Positions 34,463 to 51,282 of a stretch of DNA of 52,436 bases are shown piece after piece. The DNA comes from Pirellulales bacterium (GTDB lineage: Bacteria; Planctomycetota; Planctomycetia; Pirellulales; DATAWG01). The DNA lies in NCBI GenBank assembly GCA_035939775.1, contig DASZFO010000169.1, positions 1 to 52,436 on the forward strand, in the 5' to 3' direction. Positions within the stretch are counted from its first letter, which is position 1. Every line of letters begins with the position of its first letter. The translations under genes and the position numbers were made by a program. The notes below the pieces were generated by a model that ran no database searches, was not told where the DNA came from, and saw only the letters and a list, made by a program, of their open reading frames with translations.

Positions 34463-34624
34463 GTCGGCGCTGCCGGCTGGTCGGGAACTTTTCGGAAGTT
34501 ACCCGCGTCGAATCAATGTCTCTCGCGTCGCGATGCGCGCCGCGCATGGTAGCCTTTCTTGGGCCAATCGGGCGTTTTGGCAGTTCACCGGGCAAGGTCT
34601 TTCTTTCCAACGAATGGTTGTGCT

Positions 34625-37600
34625 ATGAATCGATCTCATCTTCGTCTTGCCGCGGCAGTTTTCGTCATAACAGCGTTTGCTTACCGGACAAACTCGGCTA
34701 GAGCCGGCGAGATCGGTTGGATCGAAGATTATTCGCTCGCCGCGGACCGCTCGGCGCCGCTCAAGCAGCTCATCCCCGGCACGGAAGATTATTACTACTA
34801 TTACTGCCTTTACTACCAATCGACCGAGCAATGGCAGAAGGTCGATGCGACGCTCAAGACCTGGGTCGCCCGCTACAACTACACGCCGCGCGCGATCGAG
34901 ATCGAGAATCGCCAGGCGCTGCTGACTTACGACACGAACCCGCAGCGCGCGTTGGACCTGATCCGCAACCGGCTCAATTTGCAGTTCAACCATCAGCGCG
35001 AAGAGTTGAACCAAAAGCCGAACCTGCCGACGAAGCTCGACCCGGCGATCATCTCGCGCCAGCGGCTGAACCCGCAGGCGTTCAACCAGTTTCCCAACAC
35101 GCTTCAGGGATTCGAAGACTCGGCCCTCGATTGGCTCGCGGCCGCCGAGTTGAATCCCGATCAGCGGCGGCAATTGCTGTCGCGGTTGCAGAGGCCCGAT
35201 GTTCCGAACCTGGTCAAGCGGGTCATCGACGATTTGAATTTCGTGAACAGTGGCGGGTTCGGCCAGTTCGAGATTCATCGCCGACTGTTGTTGGATCAGC
35301 TCGGCGAATGTCTGAAGCTCAAGCCCGAGCTGCGGAATCAGCAGAATTTCGTCGACGTTTATCTGGCTCGATTGCATCCCTCGAACGATCTCAATTGGCG
35401 GCAGGACCCGGCGGCGCTCGCGGCCTACCTCGATCGGCTTTGGGATTTCGCCAAGACGCTCGAATCGGCGCATAACTCGCTCAAGGCCCACATTCTCTAT
35501 CACCGCCTGGTGCTTGACCGCTCGCAGGGAAAGTACGATCCCGAGCGGTTCATGGAGTACATCAAATTGCCGAAACACGTGAGCTACATCGCGCCGAGAT
35601 TTATGGAGCCATTCGAGCGGCAGCAGCACGCCGCCAATCTGCAACAAGACTTCTCTCCGACGACAATGCTCCCGATCATCGGCGACGACGAGCCGCTCGT
35701 GCGGAGCTATCTGCAGCAATTCTTTCTCGAGGCCGACGACTACGCCGCCTATTCGCCCTACATCAACGATCAATACCTCAAGCAGGTCTTCGCCGAGACG
35801 AAGATCGTCAACGGCCTCGGCGATTCAGAGAAGCTCTACTCGATGTTGCCGCCGGAGGCCTACAAGCAGCTCAAGGAGCGGATCGACCTCGATTTTGCCT
35901 ACACGAACAGGACCGAACTGGCCCCCGACGATCCGGTGGGGCTTGATCTTTTCGTGAAGAATGTCGACACGCTGATCGTCAAGGTCTTCGAGGTGAACAC
36001 GCAGAACTTCTATCGCGAGAATCTCAAAGAGATCGGCCCGGACATCAATCTCGACGGCTTGGTGGCGAACGAGGAGAAGACCTACGCGTACAAAGAGCCG
36101 GCGCTGCGGCGAGTGCGGCGGCATTTCGAGTTTCCTTCGCTCAATCATCGCGGAGTGTACGTCGTCGATTTCATCGGCAACGGCAAGGCCAGCCGGGCGC
36201 TGATTCATAAGGGCAAGCTGCAATTTCTCGTCCGCACGAGCGTGGCGGGACAAATCTTCACCGTGCTCGACGAGCGGAACAAGCCGGCCCCCGAGGCCAC
36301 GCTGTGGCTGGCCGGCACGCTTTACATGCCGGACAAGGACGGCACGATCGCCGTGCCCTTCTCGAATCAGCCGGCTCGCCAGCCGATCGTGCTCTCGCTC
36401 GGCGGCTTTTCGTCGCTCGAATACTTCCAGCAGGAGCCGGAGAACTATCAACTCGCGGCAGGCATTTACGTCGATCGCGAGGAACTGATCGCCCGCCGCA
36501 AGGCCCAGTTGATCGTGCGCCCGCAGCTTTCGCTTAACGGCACACCGGTCTCGCGCAAAGCGCTGGAGGAAGTGCGGCTCGTAATCACTTCGACCGACCT
36601 CGATGGCGTGGCCAGCACGAAGGAGGCGGCCGATTTCAAGCTCTTCGAGGACCGCGAGACGGTCTACGAATTTCAGGTTCCGCAGCGGCTGGCGAAAATC
36701 CAGTTCCTCCTCAAGGCCAAGGTTCAGAATCAGAGCCGCAATCAGAAAATCGACCTGGCGGCCGAACAGTCGTTTTCGGTCGACGAAATCGACCGGACGG
36801 ACAAGACCGAGGACCTGCATTTCTGCCGCATCGAAAACGACTATGTGATCGACCTTTTAGGGAAGACGGGCGAAGCGAAGGCCGATCGACCCCTGCAAAT
36901 CACCCTCAAGATGCGCGACTATACGCAGCCGGTCTATACGTCGCTGCAAACGGACACGCGCGGGCGAGCGGTACTCGGGCCGCTGCCGGGCGTCGTCAGC
37001 GTGACGGCGACCGATCCGCAGGGCGTTTCTCACACGTGGAATCTGCGCCGCGATGAACACACTTATGCCCAAACGATCCAAGGCGAAGCGGGCAAACCGA
37101 TCGAAGTCCCTTACATGGGCGCGAAGGACAAGCCGGATCGCGCCGAGTTGTCGCTGTTGGAGCTGCGCAGCGACCGATTCGCCATCGATCGCTTCGAGAA
37201 CCTGTCGATCGAAGATGGCATGCTTGTGATCGATAAATTGCCGCCGGGCGATTATTCGCTGTTGTTCAAGGAAACGGGACGGCAGATCAATCTGCGGCTC
37301 ACCAAAGGGACGCGGCGCGACGGTTATGTGCTGGGCGATTATCGCAAGCTCGAAGCGAAAAACGGCCATCCGTTGCAAATCAAGTCGGTCCAGGTGACGG
37401 ACGCCGCGGTGCGATTGCGGATCGACAATGCCACGAAGTTCACGCGCGTGCACATCTTCGCGACGCGCTTCCAACCGGCGTTCTCGGCATACGACGAGCT
37501 GTCATACATCGCCGCGCCCGAGCCGTATTCCATAACCACGCCGCGCGCCGAATCCCGATACGTCGCCGGCCGGAACATCGGCGATGAATATCGGTATATC

Positions 37601-40600
37601 ATCGATCGCAAGTTCGCCAAGAAGTATCCCGGCAATATGCTGGAGCGGCCGAGCCTGCTGTTGAACCCGTGGGCGATCCGCAGCACGGAGACCGGCCAGC
37701 AAGAGGCGCAGGCCGGAGAAGACTTCAAGGGCGCGGGTGGGACGGGCAGCATCGCGCCGTTTCCAACGAACTTAACCCTCCAAGTTCCGAAAGAAGGCGA
37801 CTTCGCCGATCTCGATTTCCTGGCTTCCAGTTCGCTCGTCGTCGCCAATGTCGTGCCGGACAAGAACGGCGTGATCGAATTGAAGCGAGCCGATTTGGGC
37901 CCGCATCAAGAATTGCTGTTCGTGGCCGTCGATCCGGAAAACACCGTGAGCCGGATCGTCAGCCTCCCCGATCCCAAGGCTGACTTTCTCGATCTGCGGC
38001 TGGCGAAGGGGCTCGACCCGAAGCAGCATTTCACCCAGCAAAAGCGGATCAGCATCCTGCCAGCGAAGGGAACGCTGGTGATCCCCGACATCACGAGCAC
38101 GCACTTCGAGTCTTACGACAATCTGGCCCGCGTGTACGCGCTTTATGCCGCGCTGAACAACGATCCGAAGCTCGTGGAATTCGGCTTTGTCCGCGATTGG
38201 CCGTCGCTGAAGCTCGAAGAAAAGCGGGCGCTCTATCTCAAGTATGCAAGCCACGAACTGCACCTATTTCTCTATAGGAAGGACCCCGAGTTTTTCAAGT
38301 CGGCGATCCGGCCCTATCTGGCGAACAAAAAGGAGAAGCAATTCCTCGATCATTGGTTGTTGGAAGACGATTTGGGCGAGTACCTCAAGCCGTGGAACTT
38401 CGAGCAGCTCAACGCGCTCGAGCGGATTCTGCTGGCACAACGCGTCGAGGGGCAGCGACGCGTTGTGGTCCGGCTGGTGACGGACCAATTCAATCTGTTG
38501 CCACCCGACCCGGAGCGGTTCAATCACCTGTTCGAGACGGCGCTCAAGGGAAGCGAGCTCGAAACCAGCGATGCCCTCGGACTTCGCGAGGCCCTTGAGA
38601 AAGAGGACAAGGCGCCGGTTCTCGGCGATAAGGTCGCACTCGGTGGAGTGCAGGCCCGGATCCTGGCTGATAGCCCAGAAACACCCCCGATTGCCGCCGC
38701 CATGCCTCCCGCCGCGCCCGAGGCGGGCGCGAGTAAACCTGCAAACATGGCCTACGGTTTTGCCAAAAAATCGTTGGCCGAGAATCTCCGCCGCAGCGGC
38801 GCGCTGAAAGACGGATTCCGCGGCGTGGATGCATTCAACGACCGCGACGACGTCGCCTCCCTCGCCGACGATCGCGCCAAACTCGGCCGTATGTTGCAAT
38901 ACTATCGCAAGCTCGACAAAACCATGGAATGGGTGGAAAGTAGCTACTACAAGCTGCCCCTCGATCAGCAAACGGCCGCGCTCATTGCGACCAATGCCTT
39001 CTGGCGCGACTACGCCGCCCACGATCCCGATCAGCCGTTCTTCTCGACCAACATGGCTGAGGCGACGCACAATTTCCCAGAGATGCTGGCGGCGTTGTCG
39101 CTCGTGGACCTGCCGTTCAAGGCTGCGGAGCACAAGACCGAGTTCAAGGGAACTCGGATGACGCTCACGGCCGGCAGCCCGATGATCGTCTATCACGAAG
39201 AGATTCAACCGGCCGAGAAAGTGGCCGAGCACACGCCGATCCTCGTCAGCCAGAATTTCTTTCGCAACGGCGACCGCTTCCGTCAGGAGGGGGCCGAGCA
39301 AGTGGACAAGTTCGTCACCGACGAATTCCTCATCGACGTGGTCTATGGCTGCCAAATCGTCGTGACCAATCCCACGTCGTCGAAGAAAAAGGTGGATGTG
39401 CTGCTGCAGATTCCCGCCGGGGCGCTGCCCGTCGCAAACGGCCAATACACCCGGAGCGTACATCTCGATCTCGATCCCTATCACACGCAAACGCTCGAAT
39501 ACTATTTCTACTTTCCGGCGCCCGGCAAATTCCCGCACTATCCGGTGCAAGTGGCCGGCAACGGCGAGGTGTTGGCCTTCGCATCCCCGTTCACATTCAA
39601 CGTCGTCCGCGAACTTACCAACATCGACAAACAGTCTTGGGACTACATCTCGCAACACGGCAGCGAACAAGACGTGCTCGGTTTCCTCAATTCGGAAAAC
39701 GTGCTCCGAGTGAACCTTGACCGCATCGCCTGGCGGATGAAGGACAAGGCGTTCTTCGAGAATGTGATCGGCTTGCTCGCCGCGCGGCATATCTACAACC
39801 ACACGCTCTGGTCCTACGGAGTGAAGCACAACGACGTGCCGGCGATCCGCCAATTCCTGCAATTCGCGGGAGATTTCGTTCCTCAATGCGGTGACTGGAT
39901 CGACAGTCCGCTGGTGACGATCGATCCGGTCGTCCACCACGCTTACGAGCACATGGACTACAAGCCGCTGGTGAACGCGCGGGTTGGCCAACTCGGGCGA
40001 AAGCGCGAGATTCTCAATGATCGCTTCCTCGCCCAATACGAGCGGTTGCTCAAGATCCTCAGCTATCGCCGGCAGCTCGATAGCGCCGAGATGATGTCGA
40101 TCGTGTATTACCTGCTGCTTCAGGATCGCGTGGACGAGGCGCTGGAATTCTTCGGCCGAGTGAACGTCGAGCAACTTGCCACGCGGCTTCAGTACGATTA
40201 CTTCGCCGCCTACCTGGATTTCTGCAAGTCGGAGCCAAAGCTGGCCCGGCAGATTGCCGCCAAATACGCCGATTATCCCCTCGATCGCTGGCGATTGGCG
40301 TTTGCGAACATCGTCAATCAGGCCGATGAGATCGGCAAAGCCGAGATCAAAGTGGCCGACAAGGAAGATCGGACTCAGACGCAAACCAAGGAAGCCGCCG
40401 CGACGCCGTCGTTCGATTTCACCGTCGAGGCCAAGAAAGTGAAGCTCAATTTCCAGAGCCTCAAGCAAGTGCGGGTGAACTACTACCAGATGGACATTGA
40501 GCTGCTCTTCAGTCGCAATCCATTCGTGCAGGGAGAGGCGAAGCAGTTCTCGAACATCCTGCCGAACCAATCGGAAACGATCGACTTGCCGGCCGACGCC

Positions 40601-40978
40601 GCGAGCTTCGAGTTCCGGCTGCCCGACAAGCTCGTCAACAGCAACCTGCTGGTCGAGATCGCGGGCGCGGGCCAAACGCAGTCCCAGGCCTACTACTCGA
40701 ACGCCCTGCACGTGAAAACGATTGAGAATTACGGCGAAGTCCGCGTAACGCTCGACAAGGATTCAACCCCGCTCTCGAAGGTCTATGTCAAGGTCTACGC
40801 CCGCATGAAGGACGGCGCCGTGCGGTTCTACAAAGACGGCTACACCGACCTTCGCGGCCTGTTCGACTACACGTCGCTCAGCACGAACGAGCTGGACTTC
40901 GTGGATAAGTTCTCGATTCTGATCTTGAGCGAAGACCACGGCGCCGTGGTCCGCGAAGCCAGTCCGCCGAAGCGGTAG
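34625..40978 (+). CDS. Giant secreted protein, 2117 aa, macroglobulin-like features
   Basis: The ATG at 34625 starts a signal peptide (LRLAAAVFVITAFAYRTNSARA). The N-terminal 400 residues are helical and rich in Tyr/Gln. From about 430, beta-sandwich-like stretches follow: DPVGLDLFVKNVDTLIVKVF, YVVDFIGNGKASRALIHKG, VRTSVAGQIFTVLDERNKPA. These recall the MG domains of alpha-2-macroglobulins and large planctomycete surface proteins. The second half has helical blocks (KEKQFLDHWLLEDDLGEYL) and more beta segments near the C-terminus. I see no thioester CGEQ and no membrane anchor. I recognise no exact family. Long shadow ORFs on the opposite strand (one of 815 residues) are not genes. Confidence 0.9.
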   Translation: MNRSHLRLAAAVFVITAFAYRTNSARAGEIGWIEDYSLAADRSAPLKQLIPGTEDYYYYYCLYYQSTEQWQKVDATLKTWVARYNYTPRAIEIENRQALLTYDTNPQRALDLIRNRLNLQFNHQREELNQKPNLPTKLDPAIISRQRLNPQAFNQFPNTLQGFEDSALDWLAAAELNPDQRRQLLSRLQRPDVPNLVKRVIDDLNFVNSGGFGQFEIHRRLLLDQLGECLKLKPELRNQQNFVDVYLARLHPSNDLNWRQDPAALAAYLDRLWDFAKTLESAHNSLKAHILYHRLVLDRSQGKYDPERFMEYIKLPKHVSYIAPRFMEPFERQQHAANLQQDFSPTTMLPIIGDDEPLVRSYLQQFFLEADDYAAYSPYINDQYLKQVFAETKIVNGLGDSEKLYSMLPPEAYKQLKERIDLDFAYTNRTELAPDDPVGLDLFVKNVDTLIVKVFEVNTQNFYRENLKEIGPDINLDGLVANEEKTYAYKEPALRRVRRHFEFPSLNHRGVYVVDFIGNGKASRALIHKGKLQFLVRTSVAGQIFTVLDERNKPAPEATLWLAGTLYMPDKDGTIAVPFSNQPARQPIVLSLGGFSSLEYFQQEPENYQLAAGIYVDREELIARRKAQLIVRPQLSLNGTPVSRKALEEVRLVITSTDLDGVASTKEAADFKLFEDRETVYEFQVPQRLAKIQFLLKAKVQNQSRNQKIDLAAEQSFSVDEIDRTDKTEDLHFCRIENDYVIDLLGKTGEAKADRPLQITLKMRDYTQPVYTSLQTDTRGRAVLGPLPGVVSVTATDPQGVSHTWNLRRDEHTYAQTIQGEAGKPIEVPYMGAKDKPDRAELSLLELRSDRFAIDRFENLSIEDGMLVIDKLPPGDYSLLFKETGRQINLRLTKGTRRDGYVLGDYRKLEAKNGHPLQIKSVQVTDAAVRLRIDNATKFTRVHIFATRFQPAFSAYDELSYIAAPEPYSITTPRAESRYVAGRNIGDEYRYIIDRKFAKKYPGNMLERPSLLLNPWAIRSTETGQQEAQAGEDFKGAGGTGSIAPFPTNLTLQVPKEGDFADLDFLASSSLVVANVVPDKNGVIELKRADLGPHQELLFVAVDPENTVSRIVSLPDPKADFLDLRLAKGLDPKQHFTQQKRISILPAKGTLVIPDITSTHFESYDNLARVYALYAALNNDPKLVEFGFVRDWPSLKLEEKRALYLKYASHELHLFLYRKDPEFFKSAIRPYLANKKEKQFLDHWLLEDDLGEYLKPWNFEQLNALERILLAQRVEGQRRVVVRLVTDQFNLLPPDPERFNHLFETALKGSELETSDALGLREALEKEDKAPVLGDKVALGGVQARILADSPETPPIAAAMPPAAPEAGASKPANMAYGFAKKSLAENLRRSGALKDGFRGVDAFNDRDDVASLADDRAKLGRMLQYYRKLDKTMEWVESSYYKLPLDQQTAALIATNAFWRDYAAHDPDQPFFSTNMAEATHNFPEMLAALSLVDLPFKAAEHKTEFKGTRMTLTAGSPMIVYHEEIQPAEKVAEHTPILVSQNFFRNGDRFRQEGAEQVDKFVTDEFLIDVVYGCQIVVTNPTSSKKKVDVLLQIPAGALPVANGQYTRSVHLDLDPYHTQTLEYYFYFPAPGKFPHYPVQVAGNGEVLAFASPFTFNVVRELTNIDKQSWDYISQHGSEQDVLGFLNSENVLRVNLDRIAWRMKDKAFFENVIGLLAARHIYNHTLWSYGVKHNDVPAIRQFLQFAGDFVPQCGDWIDSPLVTIDPVVHHAYEHMDYKPLVNARVGQLGRKREILNDRFLAQYERLLKILSYRRQLDSAEMMSIVYYLLLQDRVDEALEFFGRVNVEQLATRLQYDYFAAYLDFCKSEPKLARQIAAKYADYPLDRWRLAFANIVNQADEIGKAEIKVADKEDRTQTQTKEAAATPSFDFTVEAKKVKLNFQSLKQVRVNYYQMDIELLFSRNPFVQGEAKQFSNILPNQSETIDLPADAASFEFRLPDKLVNSNLLVEIAGAGQTQSQAYYSNALHVKTIENYGEVRVTLDKDSTPLSKVYVKVYARMKDGAVRFYKDGYTDLRGLFDYTSLSTNELDFVDKFSILILSEDHGAVVREASPPKR

Positions 40979-40990
40979 GGCGACGCGGAA

Positions 40991-42313
40991 TCAGAACAGG
41001 ACGGAAATGCCCGTATAGAGAAGATCAGCCGATGTCGAATCCGTGACGGAGCTGCCGGGTATCGCGCCGAGCTGCGTTTCGATCGGGCCGGTGACGCGGT
41101 TCTGAAAGGCGTGGCTATAGCTGATCGAGAGCATGCAGCAGGGAGTGAACTTGTACGACGTGCCAACCGACAGCACGTGTTGGGTTATCAGCGGAGAGGA
41201 CATGTTGAAAAAGGCGACGTCGTTGCCGATCGGATTCTGGTTATAGGCGTAGCCCATCCGCAGGAACCAGCAGTCGGTGACCTGGTATTGCACTCCGGTG
41301 GCCATGCCGAAGATGCTCTTCCAGCCCAGGCCGGTCACCGATCCATCGGCGTTGAAGCCGGCCGTGCGGAAGCCGTTTGTATTGCGATTGTCGAAGTAGC
41401 GGAAATCAGAGGCGACGATCCAACGCTCGAACCCCGTGTAGGCGACGCCCACGGAGGCGATCATCGGAAAATCAAACTCCGACTTCACGGTTCGGGGCTG
41501 ACCGATTTCATTGCTCGAATTGGCGCGGAAATCGTCGAACCACTGCGGGCTCTTGAGCGAGAACCCGAGGTTCCAATTCTGCGCCTTGTAAAAGAGGCCC
41601 AGTTGCGCGCCGATCCCCCAGGTGTAGCTTGTGGCCGTGCCCGATGGATAGGTGGCGAATCCATCGCCGTTCGCGTCGTCGGGCGCGGAGAAAAAGGCCG
41701 GATCGACCGCCAACCGCGCCAAGTCGAATGTCGGCGAAACGCCGATCGAAAGCCGATCCGTCAATTGGTAGGAAACGGTCGGCACGACTTGCAGGATTTC
41801 GACGTCGGCATAAACGTGGCCGACTCCGAGTCCGGCGGGGGGCGGCGGCATCAGAACCGGATTCGTCGCGCTGGCCGGGTAATTGGTCGAAAAACCGCCG
41901 ATCCCGAAAACGCCGATGCCATACGTCCAATCCGACTCGTCCAGCTTCTTTACGAAAGCCATCGTCGGCAGGGGCGTCACGCCCGCATTGCTGTGATTGC
42001 TTCCTTGCAACGCCACGGGGGGAACGCCTGGGAAAATCGAGTTCGCCGGCAACGAAGAGGAGAGGCTCGTCGTCGGCAGCATCAGTCCCAGCCCAAAGCT
42101 GATCTCGGAAGAGTTTAGCCCGCTAATGGTGGCGGGGTTCCAGAACAGGGCTCCCGTGGCGTCGAGCGGAGCGGCCACGGCAGCGCCCCCCATCGACTGA
42201 TTGATGGGTCCCGCTCCGGGCAGCGCGATTCCCTGGCCGGCAGCCTCGCGCGAGGCCAGCACGCCCACGAGCGCGCTCAACAAGACGAGCCGTAGGGCGA
42301 ATCCGCGCATCAT
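40991..42313 (-). CDS. FadL/OmpP1/TodX family outer-membrane porin
   Basis: 440 residues with a signal peptide (LVLLSALVGVLASREAAG). The FadL hatch region follows directly: GAGPINQSMGGAAVAAPLDA with TGALFWNPATIS. Alternating beta strands ending in aromatic residues fill the rest (WTYGIGVFGIGGFSTNYP, WNLGFSLKSPQWFDDF). The C-terminus ends YTGISVLF, a typical outer-membrane insertion signal with final Phe. Members form 14-strand barrels that take up hydrophobic compounds such as long-chain fatty acids or aromatics. Convergent with the giant protein gene. A GAGGGGGG site precedes the ATG. Confidence 0.92.
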   Translation of the reverse strand: MMRGFALRLVLLSALVGVLASREAAGQGIALPGAGPINQSMGGAAVAAPLDATGALFWNPATISGLNSSEISFGLGLMLPTTSLSSSLPANSIFPGVPPVALQGSNHSNAGVTPLPTMAFVKKLDESDWTYGIGVFGIGGFSTNYPASATNPVLMPPPPAGLGVGHVYADVEILQVVPTVSYQLTDRLSIGVSPTFDLARLAVDPAFFSAPDDANGDGFATYPSGTATSYTWGIGAQLGLFYKAQNWNLGFSLKSPQWFDDFRANSSNEIGQPRTVKSEFDFPMIASVGVAYTGFERWIVASDFRYFDNRNTNGFRTAGFNADGSVTGLGWKSIFGMATGVQYQVTDCWFLRMGYAYNQNPIGNDVAFFNMSSPLITQHVLSVGTSYKFTPCCMLSISYSHAFQNRVTGPIETQLGAIPGSSVTDSTSADLLYTGISVLF

Positions 42314-42713
42314 GAGCCGCCCCCCTCAAAAAACGTCGGAGATGGCCGCAAATCCGGCCCGATCGAGACGATCGCTATCAAAATCAATATCGGACCCGGA
42401 CAAACGCCAAAAACAGTTTCTTTCGAGGTTTTTGCCTCTCGACCGGCACGTGCAAAAAGGACTCGCCGCCACGATAACCGACCTGAAAGCGCTACGCATC
42501 CATCACGACCGCTCTCCCCCACGGCCGCGTGCCCCACTCTTTGCCCGGCCAGTTACGGTGGCGTAAAGTTTAGCGGGTCTCGTTTGCCCCATGGATGCAG
42601 TCAGGCGCGGGCGCCTGTGAAGCGTCATGACGCCGCCCGTTAGGTGCGTGCGGCGGTGCCCTTTTGGCTTGGTCCCAGAGGCACTTCTCAATCGTCTGGG
42701 GAGCAACTATCTC
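42314..42713. other. Divergent intergenic region, no gene seen
   Basis: 400 bases between the porin gene and the Hpt gene. I find no ORF with coding character and no member of the repeat families. It contains a 12-base perfect palindrome GCGTCATGACGC at 42622-42633, about 80 bases before the Hpt start, which could be an operator. No convincing -35/-10 pair is visible on either strand. Confidence 0.5.
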
Positions 42714-43208
42714 ATGAACAGGGCGCGCGACCGAAGCAATTATCCCACCTCTCTTGCGCCGGCTCTCGATCAAAGAGAGTTTGAGGCCGGCCGGAGTTTG
42801 GATCGGTCGGGTCTAGAAACGATTCGCACCGCGGAAGGCCCGATCGTCGATTCAACTGACCCGGTTCCACTGGACCTTGCTGAATTGCGGCGGCGTTGCA
42901 TGGGGCGATTGGATTTCGCCGATCGGCTGCTGGCTAGCTTCGACAAGCGATTTCCGGTCGAGGTGCTGGAGATCGTGCAGAGCCTCGATGCGAACGACAT
43001 GTCGCGACTGGCACGCCTCGTGCATCAATTGAAGGGAACGACGGCAAACATCTGCGCTCCGATCTTGCACCAGATCGTTCAGCGGATCGAAGAAACGGTG
43101 AAAGCCGGCGAATTGGCGGAAACGCGCCGCGCGCTGGAACAGCTCGAGCATGAATGGGAGAGATTTACAGAATTCAAAGAGTCGATGGGCGGGGCGGGCA
43201 CGAGCTGA
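42714..43208 (+). CDS. Histidine phosphotransfer (Hpt) protein
   Basis: 164 residues from the ATG at 42714, which has a GGGGAG site upstream. Residues 60-160 form a four-helix Hpt domain: LRRRCMGRLDFADRLLASFD, then LARLVHQLKGTTANICAPIL with phospho-accepting His 104 in the HxLKG motif, then LAETRRALEQLEHEWERF. The first 55 residues look disordered. Hpt proteins pass phosphate between REC domains in multi-step relays. The next genes encode a REC-HD-GYP protein and a hybrid kinase with two RECs, so this protein probably connects them. Gap to the next start: 59 bases. Confidence 0.88.
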   Translation: MNRARDRSNYPTSLAPALDQREFEAGRSLDRSGLETIRTAEGPIVDSTDPVPLDLAELRRRCMGRLDFADRLLASFDKRFPVEVLEIVQSLDANDMSRLARLVHQLKGTTANICAPILHQIVQRIEETVKAGELAETRRALEQLEHEWERFTEFKESMGGAGTS

Positions 43209-43267
43209 GTTGAAGTGTCGGCCATTCTACGCTCTCCACTTTGGGCAGGTTTGGGGAGAATCCTGAG

Positions 43268-44332
43268 ATGCGAGTTCTTGTCGTGGAAGATGATCCAGAT
43301 GCGCTGGCGATGCTCGAAAATGCGCTGGTCTATTTCGAGTATGAAGTCTCAACGGCCCGCGACGGCCTCGAAGCGCAGGAAATGGTCCGCAACGGCAATT
43401 TTCGCGTGATCATTTCCGATTGGGTCATGCCCGGAATGAGCGGCGTGGAACTCTGTCGCTACATTCGCGAGCGGACGTCGAGCGAGTACACTTATTTCAT
43501 CCTGCTGACCGCGCGCGGCGGACGTCACAACATCATCGACGGCCTGCGCGCCGGCGCCGACGAGTTCCTCACCAAGCCGTTCGATCCCGCCGAGCTGGAA
43601 ATGCGGCTTCACGTGGCCGAGCGCATTCTGTCGCTCGAAAGCCGCGACGTGGTGATCTTCAGTTTGGCCAAGTTGGCCGAAGCCCGCGATACCGACACCG
43701 GGGCCCACTTGGAGCGGATGCGCGAGTATTGCCTGGTCCTCGCTCAGCATCTCGCGCGGATGAGCAAATTCAAAGACGTCCTCGACGGCGACTACATTCA
43801 ATTGCTCTATCTGACGAGCCCGCTGCACGATATCGGCAAGGTCGGCATTCCGGACAACGTGCTGTTGAAGCCGGGCCGGCTCACTCCCGAAGAGTTCGAG
43901 GTCATGAAGCAGCACGTCGCGATTGGAGGGCAGACGCTGAACGCGGCCGTGCAGGCGCACCCGCGCGCGAAATACCTGCAAGTCGCGCGCGACATTGCGT
44001 TCACTCATCACGAGAAGTTCGACGGAAGCGGCTATCCGTATCAGCTCCGCGGCGAGGAAATCCCGCTTTGCGGTCGAATCGTGGCATTGAGCGACGTCTA
44101 CGACGCGCTGACAACCCGGCGCGTTTACAAGCCGGCGTTTTCCCACCATATGGCCAAACAAATCATTCTCGACGGCCGTGGCAAGCACTTCGACCCCGAC
44201 GTCGTCGATGCCTTTGAGGCCAACGAGGAGCGCTTCATCGCGATCAAAGAGCAACTCGACGACGGCGAAGCGGGGGCCAATTACCAGCCCCCTTTCGCAA
44301 GCCTCATGCGAACCGGCGCCGCTGCCAATTGA
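43268..44332 (+). CDS. Response regulator with HD-GYP c-di-GMP phosphodiesterase domain
   Basis: 354 residues from the ATG at 43268 (GGGGAG site 9 bases upstream). REC domain, residues 1-120: VVEDDPDALAM acidic pair, D51 in ISDWVMPGMSG, and LTKPF lysine. HD-GYP domain, about 150-330: ARDTDTGAHLERM, LHDIGKVGIPD with H187 and D188, HHEKFDGSGYP (H247, H248, E249, GYP at 255-257) and VALSDVYDALTTRRVY. All metal and GYP residues are present, so c-di-GMP hydrolysis is expected, switched by phosphorylation of D51. It lies between Hpt and the hybrid kinase in one operon, the obvious output of the relay. Confidence 0.95.
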   Translation: MRVLVVEDDPDALAMLENALVYFEYEVSTARDGLEAQEMVRNGNFRVIISDWVMPGMSGVELCRYIRERTSSEYTYFILLTARGGRHNIIDGLRAGADEFLTKPFDPAELEMRLHVAERILSLESRDVVIFSLAKLAEARDTDTGAHLERMREYCLVLAQHLARMSKFKDVLDGDYIQLLYLTSPLHDIGKVGIPDNVLLKPGRLTPEEFEVMKQHVAIGGQTLNAAVQAHPRAKYLQVARDIAFTHHEKFDGSGYPYQLRGEEIPLCGRIVALSDVYDALTTRRVYKPAFSHHMAKQIILDGRGKHFDPDVVDAFEANEERFIAIKEQLDDGEAGANYQPPFASLMRTGAAAN

Positions 44333-44359
44333 GCCAACCCATTCAGTCCGTGATCTGCC

Positions 44360-47300
44360 ATGGCAGCAGCAGGAAACGACCCCACGACCAGCGCCGCTGT
44401 TCGCCTGTCGCTCGGGGCGGCGGGCGCATCGCCCATCGGTGGCCGCTATTACCTGGAACGGCTCCTGAGCGCAGCGGGCGGCTACGAGACGTTTCTGGCC
44501 GTGGATTCGACAACGGGCGGAAAAGTCGTCGTCCGCACCGCTTCCGCCGCGATCGCGGAGACCGTCCAAGCTCGGCTCGAATATGAAGCGGCAGTGATCC
44601 GCGGCATCGAGAGCCCTTGGCTTGCCCCGCTGCTCGACTTCGGCCGTCAGGACGATCTGTTCTTTTGGGTTCGGCCATTTCTCGCCGGAACTCCGCTGCC
44701 GACGTGGTTGGCGAGCAAGCCCGCCCTCGAGCAGGTGCTTCGGATCAGCCGGGCGTTGTTTGCCGCACTACAAGAACTGCACGGCCGCGGCGTGCTCTGT
44801 CGCAACATCCGGCCTAACAATCTCATTATCCCCGACGATGCATCCCTAGCGGCGGCCGTGATGACCGATTTCGGTTTGGGGGGCCGCAGCGTGCTGAGCG
44901 CAGACGCCCGCCGCCAATCGGTGGACGACGCGCTCTACTTGTCGCCGGAACAGGCCGGCTCGCTCGACTACGACGTCGGCGAACCGGCCGACCTGTATTC
45001 GGCCGGCGCGCTGTTGTTCGAGATGCTCGCCGGGAGTTCGCCGTTCCACGGCGCGACCGTCGGCGCCGTGCTGCTGCAGCACATGACCGCGCGGGTCCCC
45101 GAGTTGCGGAGCCTGGGACTAGAGGTGCCGCGCGTGCTGGACGAGATCGTTCAGCGATTGCTCCGCAAGGACCCGCGAGACCGTTACCAGTCGGCCGCGG
45201 CGGTTCTGGCCGATTTGGCGATGATCGAAAGCGCGTTCGCGCAGGGTCAGCGTGAGCCGGATTTCGTGGTCGGCCTCCGCGACCAGCGCGGCACCATCAC
45301 GGAAGCCGCCTTCGTCGGCAGGTCGCGCGAGTTGGAGCAGCTCGGCGAACAGATCACCCGCGTCTGCCAGCGAGAGTCGTCCCTGGTCGTCATCGAAACG
45401 GAGTCGGGCGGCGGAAAGTCGCGCTTGCTGGACGAATTGGCGCACCGCGGTCGTCGCCAAGGGCTATGGGTCCTGGGGGGGCAAGCGCGGAATCAAGTGG
45501 GACAGCACCCCTTCCAACTCCTCGACGGCATCGTCCACGAGATCGTTTCGACGGCGCGGTCGGAGCCTGGGCTCGTCGACGCGATTCGCGGGGGCCTTGG
45601 CGACCAATGCGACGCCGTCGGTGCCGCGCTGCCGCACCTCGCCGAGGCCTTGAATTGGAAAGCGTCGTCAAGTCTCGGGCCGGAAGCTTTCGGCGAATTG
45701 CGGAGTATTCAGGCGCTGGCAGCCTTCGTGGATGCGCTGGGCGCCGCCGGACGCCCCGCGATGATCATTCTCGACGATTGTCAATGGTCCGACGAATTGG
45801 CCGTCAAGCTCATCTCCGCTTGGGCACAGTCCTATAACGAGCGGCGGCGTCCAGATTCGCAAGTGCTCCTCGTCATCGCGTTCCGCAGCGAGGAAGTTCC
45901 CGCGGAGCATCCTTTGCGACGGCTCGCGCCCGCCGTCCATTTGCGGCTGGCGAAATTCAGTCCAGAGGATATCCGACAACTGATCGAGTCGATGGCCGGC
46001 CCCGTGCCCGCCGAAGTCATCGAGATCGTCACCAAGTCGTCGGACGGGAGCCCCTTCATGGCGTCCGCGGTTCTGCGCGGGCTGGTTGAATCGGGGGGAT
46101 TGGTGGCTGAACCGGATGGTTGGCGGGTCGAGCCGCTGGCGATTGCCGGGTTGCAGTCGTCGGACCAAGCAGCGTCGTTTCTGTCGCGGCGCATCAATCT
46201 GTTGCCGCCGCCGGTCGTGGAGTTTCTCTCCGTCGGAGCCGTGCTGGGCAAAGAGTTCGGGCTGCAAACCGCCATCGCGCTTTGCGGGCAAGGACCGAGG
46301 GAGGCGCTTGCGGCGATGGACCTCGCGCGGCAACGTCACCTGGTTTGGGTCGGTCCAAATGCCGCAAGCTGCGAGTTCGTCCACGACAAAATTCGCGGAG
46401 CGTTGCTCGAGCGGCTGACTGCCGACGAACTGCGGAAGCTGCACCGTCGCGCCGCCTTGCACCTTGAATCGCAGCCGGACCGCAACGCATTCGAACTGGC
46501 CTACCACTTCGACGCGGCCGACGAAAGCGGTCTGGCGCTCGACTTCGCGTTGGAAGCGGCGGAACAGGCGCGTTCGCAACACGCGCTCGAAATCGCCGAG
46601 CAGCAATACCGAATCGCCGAGCGCGGCTGCGCCGCCGCCGACACGAAGACCCGCTATCAGATTTGCGAAGGGCTCGGCGACGTGCTCATGTTGCGCGGCC
46701 GCTATGCGGCTGCCGCGGAACTCTTCGAACGAGCCGCGGCACTGGCGGAAGGTCGGTTTGCCCTCGCCCAAATCAAGGGCAAGCTGGGCGAACTCGCCTT
46801 CAAGCGCGGCGACATGGAAATTGCCACGCAATCGTTCGAGCAGGCCCTGCGCCATTTGGGCCGTTATGTGCCGCGCAGCTCGTTTGTCGTCGCGATCCTC
46901 TTTCTTTGGGAAGCGCTCGTGCAGACGCTGCACAGCCTTTGGCCCTCGCGACTCGTCGCTCGGCGGACGAAATCTCCGTCGCCGGCCGAGTTGCTCAGTT
47001 GGCGGCTCTTCAGCCGGCTGGCCCACGGATATTGGTTTGTCCGCAGCAAGGTCCACGTGCTATGGACGCATTTGCGCGGCATGAATCTCGCGGAACGCTA
47101 TCCGCCGACGCTCGAGTTGGCGCAGGCTTACTCCGAACATGCGCCGGCTATGTCGCTGCTTCCCTGGTATCAACGCGGCGTGATCTATGCACAGAAGTCG
47201 TTCGATATTCGCAGCTCGTTTCGCGACTTGTGGGGACAAGGTCAGTCGTTGGGCTACTACGCTATCGTGCTCTATGCCGGCTCTCGATTTTCGGAATGCG

Positions 47301-50257
47301 TGGAGAAGGGGCGCGAAGCGATTCGCCTGCTCGAACGGACTGGCGATTTCTGGGAGATGCACATCGCGCGTTATCAGGTTGCGGCGGCCCTCTATCGCCT
47401 GGGCGATCTGCCGGGGGCGATCGAGCTAGCGCGGCGGAATTACGAGTCGGGAATCCAACTCGGCGACGAACAGGCCTCGGGAATCAGCCTCGATGTTTGG
47501 TCGCGGGCGGCGCTCGGCAAGATCCCGGAAGAAATCCTTGCCGTGGAAATGAAACGGACTCGCCCCGATGCGCAGGGCACCGCCCAGACGATGCTCGGCG
47601 AGGGAGTGCGCTTGCTGGCGAGCGGTCGGTCCGAAGACGCGGCGAACGCCTTTGAATCCGCCTTGAGAGTCGCCAGGCAGGCCGGAGTGATGAACGCCTA
47701 CGTCGCTCCCAACTTGGCCTGGCTGGCAACCGCGCGGCGCGTGCAAATCGAGCGGTATAATGGTCATCTCGCGAGCCGGCGTCGCGAGTTGCTCCGCAGC
47801 GCCGAGAAGGCGGCGCGGCGGGCTTTGCTCATCGCGCGCCGCTTCCAGAACGATCTCCCTCATGCGCTCCGGGAACGAGGCATTTTGTTGTGCTTGCGGG
47901 GCAATAGCCGCAAAGGACTCCGGCTTCTGTCCAAGAGCCTGGCAGTGGCCGAACGTCAGGGAGCCGCATACGAATCCGCTTTGTCGTCGCTTTTGGCCGG
48001 CCAGGTGCGTGCGGAACTCGGATGGACGGATGCCCAACGGATGGTCGCCGCGGCCGAAGCCGCCCTTCGATCTTTGGCCATGTCGCATCTACCCGGCAAG
48101 ACCGGGCCCGAGGCGACGACGGGAGCGGCGACGTTGTCATTGGCGGATCGGTTCGACACGGTACTCGACTCGGGACGGCGAATCGCCTCAGCGCTATCGC
48201 CCGAAACGATCTTCGCCGAAGCCCATCGGGCCGCACTTCAACTCTTGCGAGCGGAGAAATGCCTGGTTTGGCAGGTCGAGCAAGCAGCCGAAGAACAACA
48301 TCTTATCCCGATCGTCGGCCAGTCGGAGAGCGAAGCCGGTCAGTCGTTGGTGGAACGCTCGCTCCGGGCCGGATGTGCCCTCTCCGATCAGGATGAGTTG
48401 GCCGCGGAGGCCGGCATCGGCTCGTTGGACGCCACTCAAGGTTCCGCACTGAGCGTGCCCGTCTTGGCGCGCGGACAGGCGGTCGCGTGCCTTTCGGTCG
48501 TCCACGAGCAAGTGCGAAATCTATTCGGCGAAGACGAGAAACGGCTCGCCGATTTCGTGGCGACGATCGCCGGCGCCGCGTTCGAAAATGCCCAGGGCTT
48601 CCAGCAGCTTCAGCAACTCAATGCAACGCTGGAACAGCGGGTTGCCGAACGCACCGCAGCCGCGGAGGCTGCCACCAAAGCCAAGAGCCAATTCCTGGCG
48701 ATGGTCAGCCACGAGATTCGCACCCCAATGAACGGCATCATTGGAATGACCGAACTGACGCTCACCACTGCACTCAACTCGCAACAAAAGAGCTATCTCA
48801 ACATCGTCCGGCAGTCCGCCGATTCACTTCTCCGCCTGTTGAACGACATTCTCGATTTTTCAAAGGTCGAAGCAGGCCGCCTCGAACTGGAACGAACCGA
48901 CTTTGACGTCCGCGAAGTGGTGGGAAACGCGCTGCAGGTCCGCGCGCGCGACGCCTCGCAGAAAGGTCTGGAACTCATTCAGACGATCTGTCGCGAGGTC
49001 CCTTGCCAGCTCGTCGGGGATCCCAATCGATTGCGGCAAGTCATCGTCAATCTGGTCGGAAACGCGGTGAAGTTCACCGACTGCGGCGAAGTTCTCGTCG
49101 ATGTCGCAATCGAACACCAGACCGCGGACGGAATTCGACTCCATTTTTTCGTGCGCGACACCGGAATCGGCATCCCCGCGGACAAGCACCAATGCATCTT
49201 CGAGTCGTTCCGTCAGGCCGATAACTCGACCACTCGGCGATATGGAGGCACCGGCCTCGGCTTGGCAATCTCCGCTCAATTGGTCCAGCTCATGGGAGGA
49301 CGGATCTGGGTTGAGAGCGAGCCGGGCAGCGGAAGCACGTTTCACTTTACCGCGGAGTTCGAGCGAAGCGCGAGCAGCGAAGCTCCGCAGATCGCGACTG
49401 CCGCGACCTTGCGGAGTCTCCGTGCGTTGGTCGTCGATGACAATGCCACGCAGCGGTCGGCTCTCGGTCGATTCCTGGCCGACCTGGGAATGCTGCCAAC
49501 GCTCGCCGATGGCGCCAGTTCGGCAATGACCGAATGTCGCGCCGCCGTTGCCGAAAATCACGGATTTGACGTCCTAATAATCGACGGCGACCCGGCGACG
49601 CACGACGGCTCGGCGCTCGTCGAACACATTCGCGAACTGCCGCGGCTCAAAGCCTGCCCGGCGATTGTTCTGATGCCCGCGATCGAGCATTCGGATTCGG
49701 CCGGTTGCGAGCGCCTGAGCAATGTCCAATGCCTGACCAAGCCGGCGAAACATTCCGAATTGCTCGAGGCCTTGGTTGCCGCCGGCGCGTCGCGCGACGG
49801 AACGCGAAACCACGTCCGCGGCGATCAAGCCGACGCGGATCGGTCATTGCGCATTCTCCTGGTGGAAGACGGTGCGATCAATCGCGAAGTAGCGCTCGGA
49901 CTGCTTGAACTGAAAGGCCACGAGGTGCAAGTTGCCGAGAACGGCTTGGAAGCGCTCGCGGTGCTTGAAAGCCACTTGTTTGACCTCGTGCTAATGGACC
50001 TGGAAATGCCGGAAATGGACGGCATGGAAGCCACCAAAGCCATCCGCGGCAACGAGGCGGTCACCGGAGGGAGAGTGCCGATCATCGCCATGACTGCGCA
50101 CGCTGTCCATGGCTATCGCGAGCAATGTCTTGCCGCGGGAATGGATGGCTATGTCACCAAACCGATCTGGCCGGACGAGCTATTTGCCGCGCTGGCTGCC
50201 GCCGTCGGAGCGGCAAGCAACACGCCAGCCGGTTCGACGGAACTCTTGCTCCGCTGA
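44360..50257 (+). CDS. Giant hybrid histidine kinase with N-terminal pseudokinase, AAA ATPase and TPR
   Basis: 1965 residues. A Ser/Thr kinase fold (about 28-290) has lost key residues: the VAxK lysine is Arg (KVVVRTAS) and HRD is C147-R148-N149, while DFG is kept (170-172). It is probably a pseudokinase. An AAA/NACHT-like ATPase (about 318-610) follows, with ESGGGKS at 348-354 and Walker [12 protein letters not shown]. Then come TPR-like helices (about 680-1240), a GAF domain (about 1258-1410), a coiled coil, HisKA with H1451 ([12 protein letters not shown]), HATPase_c ([24 protein letters not shown]), REC1 (D1742) and REC2 (D1880, [12 protein letters not shown]). It has no membrane segment, so cytosolic sensing is likely. 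The kinase-AAA-TPR-GAF-HK plan resembles large cyanobacterial and myxobacterial sensor kinases. 27 bases after the HD-GYP gene. Confidence 0.95.
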
Positions 50258-50268
50258 ACGAACCGGCG

Positions 50269-51282
50269 TCAGTTTCGCGTCAGTTGCAGAAAGACGATGT
50301 TCTTGCATTCCTCGGACACCAGGTTGATTGCCTGGACCTCGGCCTCGGGAATATCCATCGTCAAATCGATCATATCGTGCCGCGATCGATAGACCAGGTT
50401 CCAATCCATGAAGGCTTCCATGTAACCGATGTCGCGGATGCCGGGCAAAAAATTGGCGACGACGAGGCTTCCGCCGGGGCGCAGCATCTGGAACATCGAG
50501 GTAACGAGGCGGCGGCCCGTGCGCTGGTTCAAATAGTCGAATAGGCCCGTCGAATATACGAGATCGAATTCGGCCTGGTGACTTTGCCGCCCGAGCAATC
50601 TTGTAAATGACCCGGTGACCGTTTCGACGCCATAGCAAGCGTAGCAGCGCTGCACCTCGGCGGCGCTTTCCGGATCGGCGTCCAGGGCCAGAAACCGGCC
50701 GGTCCGGCGGCGCCGCACGGCGATCGAAACGCTGGCCTCGCGCAAGTGCCCGGCCGCAATCGAGAGGATGTGTGGTCGTCGGCGCTCTTCCGCCAACCGA
50801 TCGATCTGGGCAGACATGAACGCGCGGCGCGCGCGAACTCCTTCCGACGCGGGCGCTAGGGTCGTATAGTCGAAAACTTGGCGCCCGATGGGCTCGGCCG
50901 GCGGCGGCACACGCTGGTCCTCGCGGCCGTAAATGAAATCCATCATTTCGGCGTCGCCGGCATAGCCGCGCGGTTTCGAAAACGCGCGGTAGGTAAACGG
51001 ATCTTGATGGAGGGCCTGAAGGAGAGGATGTTGTCGGCATTTCGCGACGAACGCCTTCCAATCAGGAGCGGACGAACTCATCACGCGTTCGTGTAGCGCG
51101 AGAAAGAGTTCGTCGAGCGCCTGATGAACGCATTGTGGGTCGCATGATTCGGCGAGCCTTCGTTGCACGTCATCAAACAACCGCCAGTAGATTTGGTCCT
51201 CTTGTCGCTGGATTTCTTGCTGACGCAAGGCGTGACCATTCAACTCCGGCACGTGGGCCGCGTCAAAAGCGTGGTTCAACAT
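50269..51282 (-). CDS. Class I SAM-dependent methyltransferase, possibly PhcB-like
   Basis: 337 residues, cytosolic. An N-terminal helical part carries the block FSKPRGYAGDAEMMDFIYGR, which I associate with proteins annotated as extracellular-factor (3-hydroxypalmitate methyl ester) biosynthesis proteins. The Rossmann part has ILSIAAGHLREA (motif I), FLALDADPESAAEVQRCY (motif II acidic residue), FDLVYSTGLFDYLNQ and QMLRPGGSLVVANF. In Ralstonia, PhcB makes a quorum signal read by a kinase encoded beside it; here the gene ends 12 bases from the giant kinase gene in convergent orientation. The link is inference. It may equally methylate an unrelated small molecule. Confidence 0.82.
   Translation of the reverse strand: MLNHAFDAAHVPELNGHALRQQEIQRQEDQIYWRLFDDVQRRLAESCDPQCVHQALDELFLALHERVMSSSAPDWKAFVAKCRQHPLLQALHQDPFTYRAFSKPRGYAGDAEMMDFIYGREDQRVPPPAEPIGRQVFDYTTLAPASEGVRARRAFMSAQIDRLAEERRRPHILSIAAGHLREASVSIAVRRRRTGRFLALDADPESAAEVQRCYACYGVETVTGSFTRLLGRQSHQAEFDLVYSTGLFDYLNQRTGRRLVTSMFQMLRPGGSLVVANFLPGIRDIGYMEAFMDWNLVYRSRHDMIDLTMDIPEAEVQAINLVSEECKNIVFLQLTRN

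Follow-up and report, generated by a model that had tools for sequence, protein, structure and literature searches.

What does a planctomycete phosphorelay that ends in cyclic-di-GMP (c-di-GMP) turnover respond to, and do the genes flanking it belong to the answer? The window, meaning the whole 52,436-bp stretch of DNA analyzed here, is one contig (C169) of the 6.4-Mb draft genome of a Pirellulales bacterium, and it contains an operon for an Hpt protein, a REC-HD-GYP response regulator and a 1965-residue hybrid kinase that an earlier sequence-only reading had described as a self-contained phosphorelay. We found that these three genes are the core of a conserved five-gene planctomycete cassette that also includes a FadL-type outer-membrane channel and a methyltransferase. 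On balance, we favour the view that this cassette detects a fatty-acyl signal that is hydrophobic and probably self-made, and turns it into a change in c-di-GMP. Its parts in the window are:

40991..42313, minus strand: FadL/OMPP1/TodX-type outer-membrane hydrophobic channel, 440 residues, divergent from the operon (PF03349, E 5.6e-28)
42714..43208 (possible earlier start at 42627), plus strand: stand-alone Hpt phosphotransfer protein (PF01627, E 1.5e-12; HxxKG-type motif)
43268..44332 (ATG at 43268; open reading frame from TTG at 43241), plus strand: REC-HD-GYP response regulator, predicted c-di-GMP phosphodiesterase (PF00072 and HD_5)
44360..50257, plus strand: 1965-residue soluble hybrid sensor kinase, defined by Pfam domains and a residue comparison with about 27 planctomycete relatives
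44360..45260, plus strand: predicted pseudokinase domain within the sensor (R59 and N149; DFG at 170-172 and APE-type motif kept)
49413..49781, plus strand: REC1, residues ~1685-1807 (D1742 present; Met1772 at the Thr/Ser switch position)
49853..50194, plus strand: REC2, residues ~1832-1945, likely domain of the relay aspartate (E1836, D1837, D1880, T1912, K1934)
50269..51282, minus strand: class I S-adenosylmethionine-dependent methyltransferase (METHYLTRANSFERASE), 337 residues, candidate signal synthase (PhcB-family homology)

The three operon genes are all present at 42714-50257, as first reported, with intergenic gaps of 59 and 27 bp. The term self-contained had to be dropped, since at least two further conserved genes, those for FadL and the methyltransferase, lie outside that interval. 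The end of the methyltransferase gene is 11 bp from the kinase stop, and the window FadL scores 98 bits against PF03349 (cut-off 29.7).

Co-occurrence of the parts was examined in 57 genomes of the order, which are relatives and not independent samples. The kinase is present in 19 of these and absent from 38. An HD-GYP protein of the split-form clade (defined by the tree below), a strong FadL (390 bits or more, or split into two halves at contig ends) and a putative carboxyl-methyltransferase were found in 19/19 kinase genomes and in 0/38 of the others at the scores used. The methyltransferase is a strong PhcB-like protein (at least 300 bits) in 15 kinase genomes and a fusion of a hotdog domain with a leucine-carboxyl-methyltransferase (hotdog-LCM) in four. 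Among the kinase-negative genomes, five have a FadL of lower score (337-362 bits) and eleven a lower-scoring methyltransferase (130-161 bits) from a different subfamily. Nominal Fisher values of 1e-10 to 1e-15 are too strong given this relatedness, though the pattern itself is exact. Both states, cassette present and cassette absent, are found inside six families, and therefore the parts come and go together. Physical linkage of the cassette is common and incomplete, with FadL near the kinase in most loci, and the loci in G034 and G050 are interrupted by contig ends. At the locus L050 a fatty acid desaturase gene (L050:6268-7341) was observed between the kinase and FadL.

The operon holds all four stations of a His-Asp-His-Asp relay, these being the histidine kinase (HK) His, a receiver Asp, the Hpt His and a terminal receiver Asp. 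The residues named in the sequence-only reading were located exactly, with H1451 (in SHEIRTP), D1742 and D1880 in the kinase and H104 (in VHQLKG, counted from 42714) in the Hpt protein. The acceptor His is retained in all operon Hpts, and the host genome has a total of seven Hpt domains. The REC-HD-GYP protein matches Response_reg (3.3e-25) and HD_5 (5.2e-26) in Pfam and does carry the full set of HD-GYP residues claimed for it (HDIGK, HHE and GYP intact), the core motif columns being invariant across 23 relatives. The closest solved structures are the HD-GYP phosphodiesterases 4r8z and 4mcw, and we predict that the protein is a c-di-GMP phosphodiesterase. The Hpt/HD-GYP/kinase set recurs in many families of the order, which is far beyond chance, and at L139, where the gene order is rearranged, the three genes still lie together. 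A fused sister form, HK-REC-REC-Hpt, adjoins a REC-HD-GYP gene in the host genome and at ten other sampled loci, and spells out the partners in a way that makes the relay credible:

G000:C336:7414-11299, minus strand: sister locus L145, fused HK-REC-REC-Hpt then REC-HD-GYP, no FadL or methyltransferase nearby

Neither FadL nor the methyltransferase was found near any of the eleven fused-form loci. A tree of 38 REC-HD-GYP proteins placed 23 split-form proteins on one side of a branch with a Shimodaira-Hasegawa-like approximate likelihood ratio test (SH-aLRT) value of 99. With a conserved operon, intact residues and the fused sister form behind it, the relay ending in a c-di-GMP phosphodiesterase that was first proposed is supported, and judged from residues and gene order its anatomy appears near-certain. 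The phosphate likely passes from H1451 to D1880 of REC2, then to Hpt H104 and finally to the receiver of the REC-HD-GYP protein, a path drawn through D1880 because REC2 is complete in all relatives and REC1 is degraded in most.

The kinase is laid out as a pseudo-Ser/Thr protein kinase (STPK) domain (~25-300), an AAA/STAND-like ATPase (~318-491), a TPR-like region to ~1270, a GAF domain (1279-1409) and a HisKA/HATPase core (1441-1667), followed by REC1 of a degenerate type and an intact REC2. Pfam matches to Pkinase (1.2e-17), AAA_16, TPR, GAF, HisKA (9e-22), HATPase (2e-31) and two Response_reg domains bear out the Ser/Thr kinase fold and AAA/TPR module that had been read at the N-terminus. 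An active Ser/Thr kinase, as that fold could be read, is rejected on its residues: the β3 Lys is R59, the HRD Asp is N149 and the catalytic-loop Lys is R151, and the Lys, Asp, Asn and Asp of an STPK are all retained in only one of the ~27 kinase sequences. Because the catalytic residues are lost in the window protein and in nearly all relatives, the N-terminal domain is by its residues a pseudokinase, degenerate in nearly every relative. The ATPase keeps its Walker A Lys and Walker B DDxxW nearly throughout the same set, the window protein reading LDDxQW at Walker B. The two receivers differ in the same comparison. REC2 has its acidic pair, phospho-acceptor Asp, Thr/Ser and the Lys equivalent to K1934 in 27/27 sequences, and REC1 is fully intact in 2/27, with the acid pair, the Thr/Ser or the acceptor lost in most relatives. 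The idea of two working receivers thus did not hold up, and REC1 is unlikely to be a relay step even though the window protein retains D1742, with Met1772 in the switch position. We propose that the pseudokinase and REC1 act as regulatory or docking domains and not as catalytic steps.

The window methyltransferase is up to 33% identical to PhcB-type proteins (blastp E 3.6e-21, L215; hhalign probability 99.2). It is the sole member of its family in its genome, and strong members occur only in kinase-bearing genomes. An AlphaFold model with a predicted local distance difference test (pLDDT) score of 81.8 has the class I methyltransferase fold, and a fold search returned generic class I methyltransferases (best 3ocj); a PDB sequence search gave weak generic matches and nothing better, and NCBIfam provided no useful name. 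A profile of the cassette methyltransferases, searched against 300 genomes from one betaproteobacterial order, matched in 10 of them, and five of the matches (462-469 residues) lie directly before a histidine kinase gene. At L217 this kinase is followed by REC-HK and REC genes, and the spacing is the same at L218 and L219. Since the L217 layout equals the published phcB-phcS-phcR-phcQ order (PMC8578825), we assign these reference loci to the phcBSRQ type by gene layout and not by name, and by homology the window methyltransferase belongs to the family that holds the first gene of such operons. The product of PhcB is methyl 3-hydroxymyristate, a quorum-sensing signal (PMC8578825). In a separate observation, the PhcQ-like receiver at L217:3208-4143 scores best against a model of a NosR-type c-di-GMP phosphodiesterase regulator, over the first 129 of 422 positions, and the same model tops the search with the window REC-HD-GYP protein.

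Homologues of the methyltransferase were also seen in other settings. On four Rhizobium plasmid records (L200, L228, L230 and L231) the gene is transcribed away from a neighbouring GGDEF or GGDEF/EAL gene, possibly an independent link between such a methyltransferase and c-di-GMP, and a cyanobacterial homologue adjoins a histidine kinase and a response regulator. A Deinococcus homologue (L201) has a fatty acid desaturase nearby, and on two Enterobacter ludwigii plasmids (NZ_CP134637 and NZ_CP134634; H32 and H33) a homologue of the L132 type lies inside an annotated type I polyketide synthase gene.

The methyltransferase slot is not always filled by the same enzyme. Of the 19 kinase genomes, the four that lack a PhcB-like gene have hotdog-LCM in this slot, and no other genome has it. 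In the fusion, a hotdog domain of thioesterase-like type (PF09500; L141 scores 28.5 bits, the others lower or below threshold) is joined to a leucine-carboxyl-methyltransferase (PF04072, E 5e-25 to 2e-29):

L129:3328-5061: hotdog-LCM fusion
L138:9769-11334: hotdog-LCM fusion
L139:11969-13696: hotdog-LCM fusion
L141:11879-13405: hotdog-LCM fusion

In a third kinase clade, a hydrolase-like protein of ~330 residues and a Methyltransf_20 protein (PF12147) are encoded directly before the kinase:

L066:3545-5544: hydrolase-like protein and Methyltransf_20 pair
L048:694-2690: hydrolase-like protein and Methyltransf_20 pair
L057:3611-5585: hydrolase-like protein and Methyltransf_20 pair
L067:600-2596: hydrolase-like protein and Methyltransf_20 pair

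The ~330-residue protein has no Pfam match, and the alpha/beta-hydrolase matches of a low-confidence model from L066 (pLDDT 50.8) are only a hint of that fold. Since unrelated enzymes occupy one slot, an equivalent product is suggested, and the simplest common product would be a fatty acid methyl ester formed by acyl release and carboxyl methylation.

These observations can be arranged into one circuit. In it, the signal would come from the methyltransferase, most likely through carboxyl methylation of a fatty acid or hydroxy fatty acid, and, being hydrophobic, would cross the outer membrane by way of the FadL-type channel. The soluble pseudokinase-AAA-TPR-GAF module would detect it and set the activity of the histidine kinase. 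The anatomy strongly supports a phosphate path from H1451 through REC2 (D1880) and the His of the stand-alone Hpt to the receiver Asp of the REC-HD-GYP protein, and phosphorylation there would set the phosphodiesterase, with the change in c-di-GMP then setting, probably, the sessile or motile state. A soluble sensor of a hydrophobic signal would need import, which FadL would fit, and FadL can serve signalling, as it takes up long-chain acyl-homoserine lactones in Sinorhizobium (PMC9938287). The guess in the sequence-only reading that a cytosolic ligand controls the kinase also fits the soluble N-terminal module and its FadL and methyltransferase neighbours. Signal synthesis, FadL transport and N-terminal sensing form the weaker half of the circuit, and we give the fatty-acyl ligand model covering these three steps about an even chance.

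Several points weigh against this circuit. The 57 genomes are related, so the co-occurrence counts are not independent. The methyltransferase and FadL genes are opposite in strand to the operon, which bears on co-expression; both lie on other contigs in G015 and G031, as the Hpt/HD-GYP pair does in G043 and G049. The short contig L052 has no recognised methyltransferase on it. The substrate of the methyltransferase is not settled by its homology to PhcB, we know of no biochemistry for any member of the family, and Deinococcus and Aureimonas homologues have no signalling gene nearby. Some of these points would suit a plain phosphorelay, in which c-di-GMP is set by an internal cue such as redox state, a nucleotide or a protein partner, and FadL and the methyltransferase are neighbours or regulated outputs. 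The three-gene operon is explained by a relay alone, and the other two genes, on the opposite strand, are unlinked in a few genomes. However, such a relay does not account for the strict co-occurrence (19/19 vs 0/38) or for one slot filled repeatedly by unrelated methyltransferases, and the fused-form relays also drive HD-GYP proteins yet are without FadL or methyltransferase neighbours, and we consider this explanation unlikely.

FadL proteins commonly import exogenous hydrophobic compounds. The cassette could accordingly sense environmental lipids, with FadL importing algal or detrital fatty compounds and the methyltransferase modifying or detoxifying them for sensing, and no self-made signal involved; the desaturase genes beside FadL in L050 and near the Deinococcus homologue would be in keeping with this. 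That the methyltransferase shares a family with PhcB, an autoinducer synthase, argues otherwise, as does the conservation of a methyltransferase, not catabolic genes, at the locus, and we find an environmental-lipid sensor improbable. Least probable of all, and by far, is a dual-specificity kinase in which Ser/Thr phosphorylation by the N-terminal domain, on the histidine kinase or on other proteins, sets relay output. The protein-kinase fold with its DFG and APE-type motifs is kept, and dual STPK-HK proteins occur in cyanobacteria (PMC2176072), but in the window protein R59 stands in place of the β3 Lys and N149 in place of the catalytic Asp, and a single relative has the full set. We therefore keep to the self-made fatty-acyl signal as the preferred reading.

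Beyond the cassette, a 2139-residue plus-strand open reading frame at 34559-40978 of the window has a codon-position GC pattern like that of coding sequence and may carry a signal peptide, with no match in Pfam or NCBIfam; an 815-residue open reading frame lies opposite it.

Planctomycete cell-cell signalling is almost unexplored, and has merely been hypothesised in work on stieleriacines (PMC9028447). In the open-licence literature searched, we found neither this combination of genes, its strict co-occurrence and its interchangeable methyltransferases nor any paper naming both PhcB and Planctomycetes, and the STPK-HK literature, which covers cyanobacteria and fungi, does not contain this cassette. 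It is possible, if slightly short of an even chance, that the cassette represents a planctomycete quorum-sensing-like system, with carboxyl-methylated fatty acyl signals from interchangeable methyltransferases, a dedicated FadL for uptake, a soluble pseudokinase-STAND hybrid kinase and a split phosphorelay to c-di-GMP. If true, a single locus would encode a new circuit, from synthase and channel through receptor and relay to output, and tie it to the sessile/motile decision through c-di-GMP; methyl-ester signalling would extend beyond betaproteobacteria, and soluble STPK-AAA-TPR-GAF histidine kinases would gain a class of ligands open to testing. A testable prediction also follows from the three alternative methyltransferases found in the one slot, namely that unrelated enzymes make the same kind of product.

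Every part of the cassette belongs to a known family, and the hybrid kinase architecture is itself a known plan. The STPK-GAF-HK dual-kinase class is known from cyanobacteria (PMC2176072), and HstK/cbSTKIII and the STPK-ATPase-GAF-HK fungal hybrids likewise combine an STPK fold, GAF and a histidine kinase in one soluble protein, whereas in the window the STPK is catalytically incomplete, two receivers are added, and the protein sits in a relay alongside Hpt, HD-GYP, FadL and methyltransferase. The phcBSRQ systems of Ralstonia, Cupriavidus and relatives share a homologous methyltransferase as candidate synthase, an adjacent two-component relay and a proposed hydrophobic methyl-ester signal. We do not claim that the cassette belongs to Phc quorum sensing, as no PhcS-PhcR-PhcQ partners were found beside the window methyltransferase and both sensor and output differ: the sensor is the 1965-residue soluble pseudokinase-AAA-TPR-GAF hybrid and not of the PhcS type, and the output is an HD-GYP phosphodiesterase in place of PhcR/PhcQ/PhcA. 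The cassette also adds FadL and Hpt, and its methyltransferase, at 337 residues shorter than the 463-residue PhcB type, is replaceable by unrelated types. The four-step relay logic is that of the BarA/ArcB/TorS hybrid kinases, and the window HK-receiver module best matches the BarA and TorS models; here, in contrast, Hpt is a separate gene (fused in the C336 paralogue), REC1 is degraded in most relatives, the input module is wholly different and the operon includes a c-di-GMP phosphodiesterase as output. That output resembles RpfG, PA4781 and PmGH in its REC-linked HD-GYP domain with all motif residues, 4r8z and 4mcw being the closest structures, and would differ from them in being fed via Hpt and not directly by a kinase.
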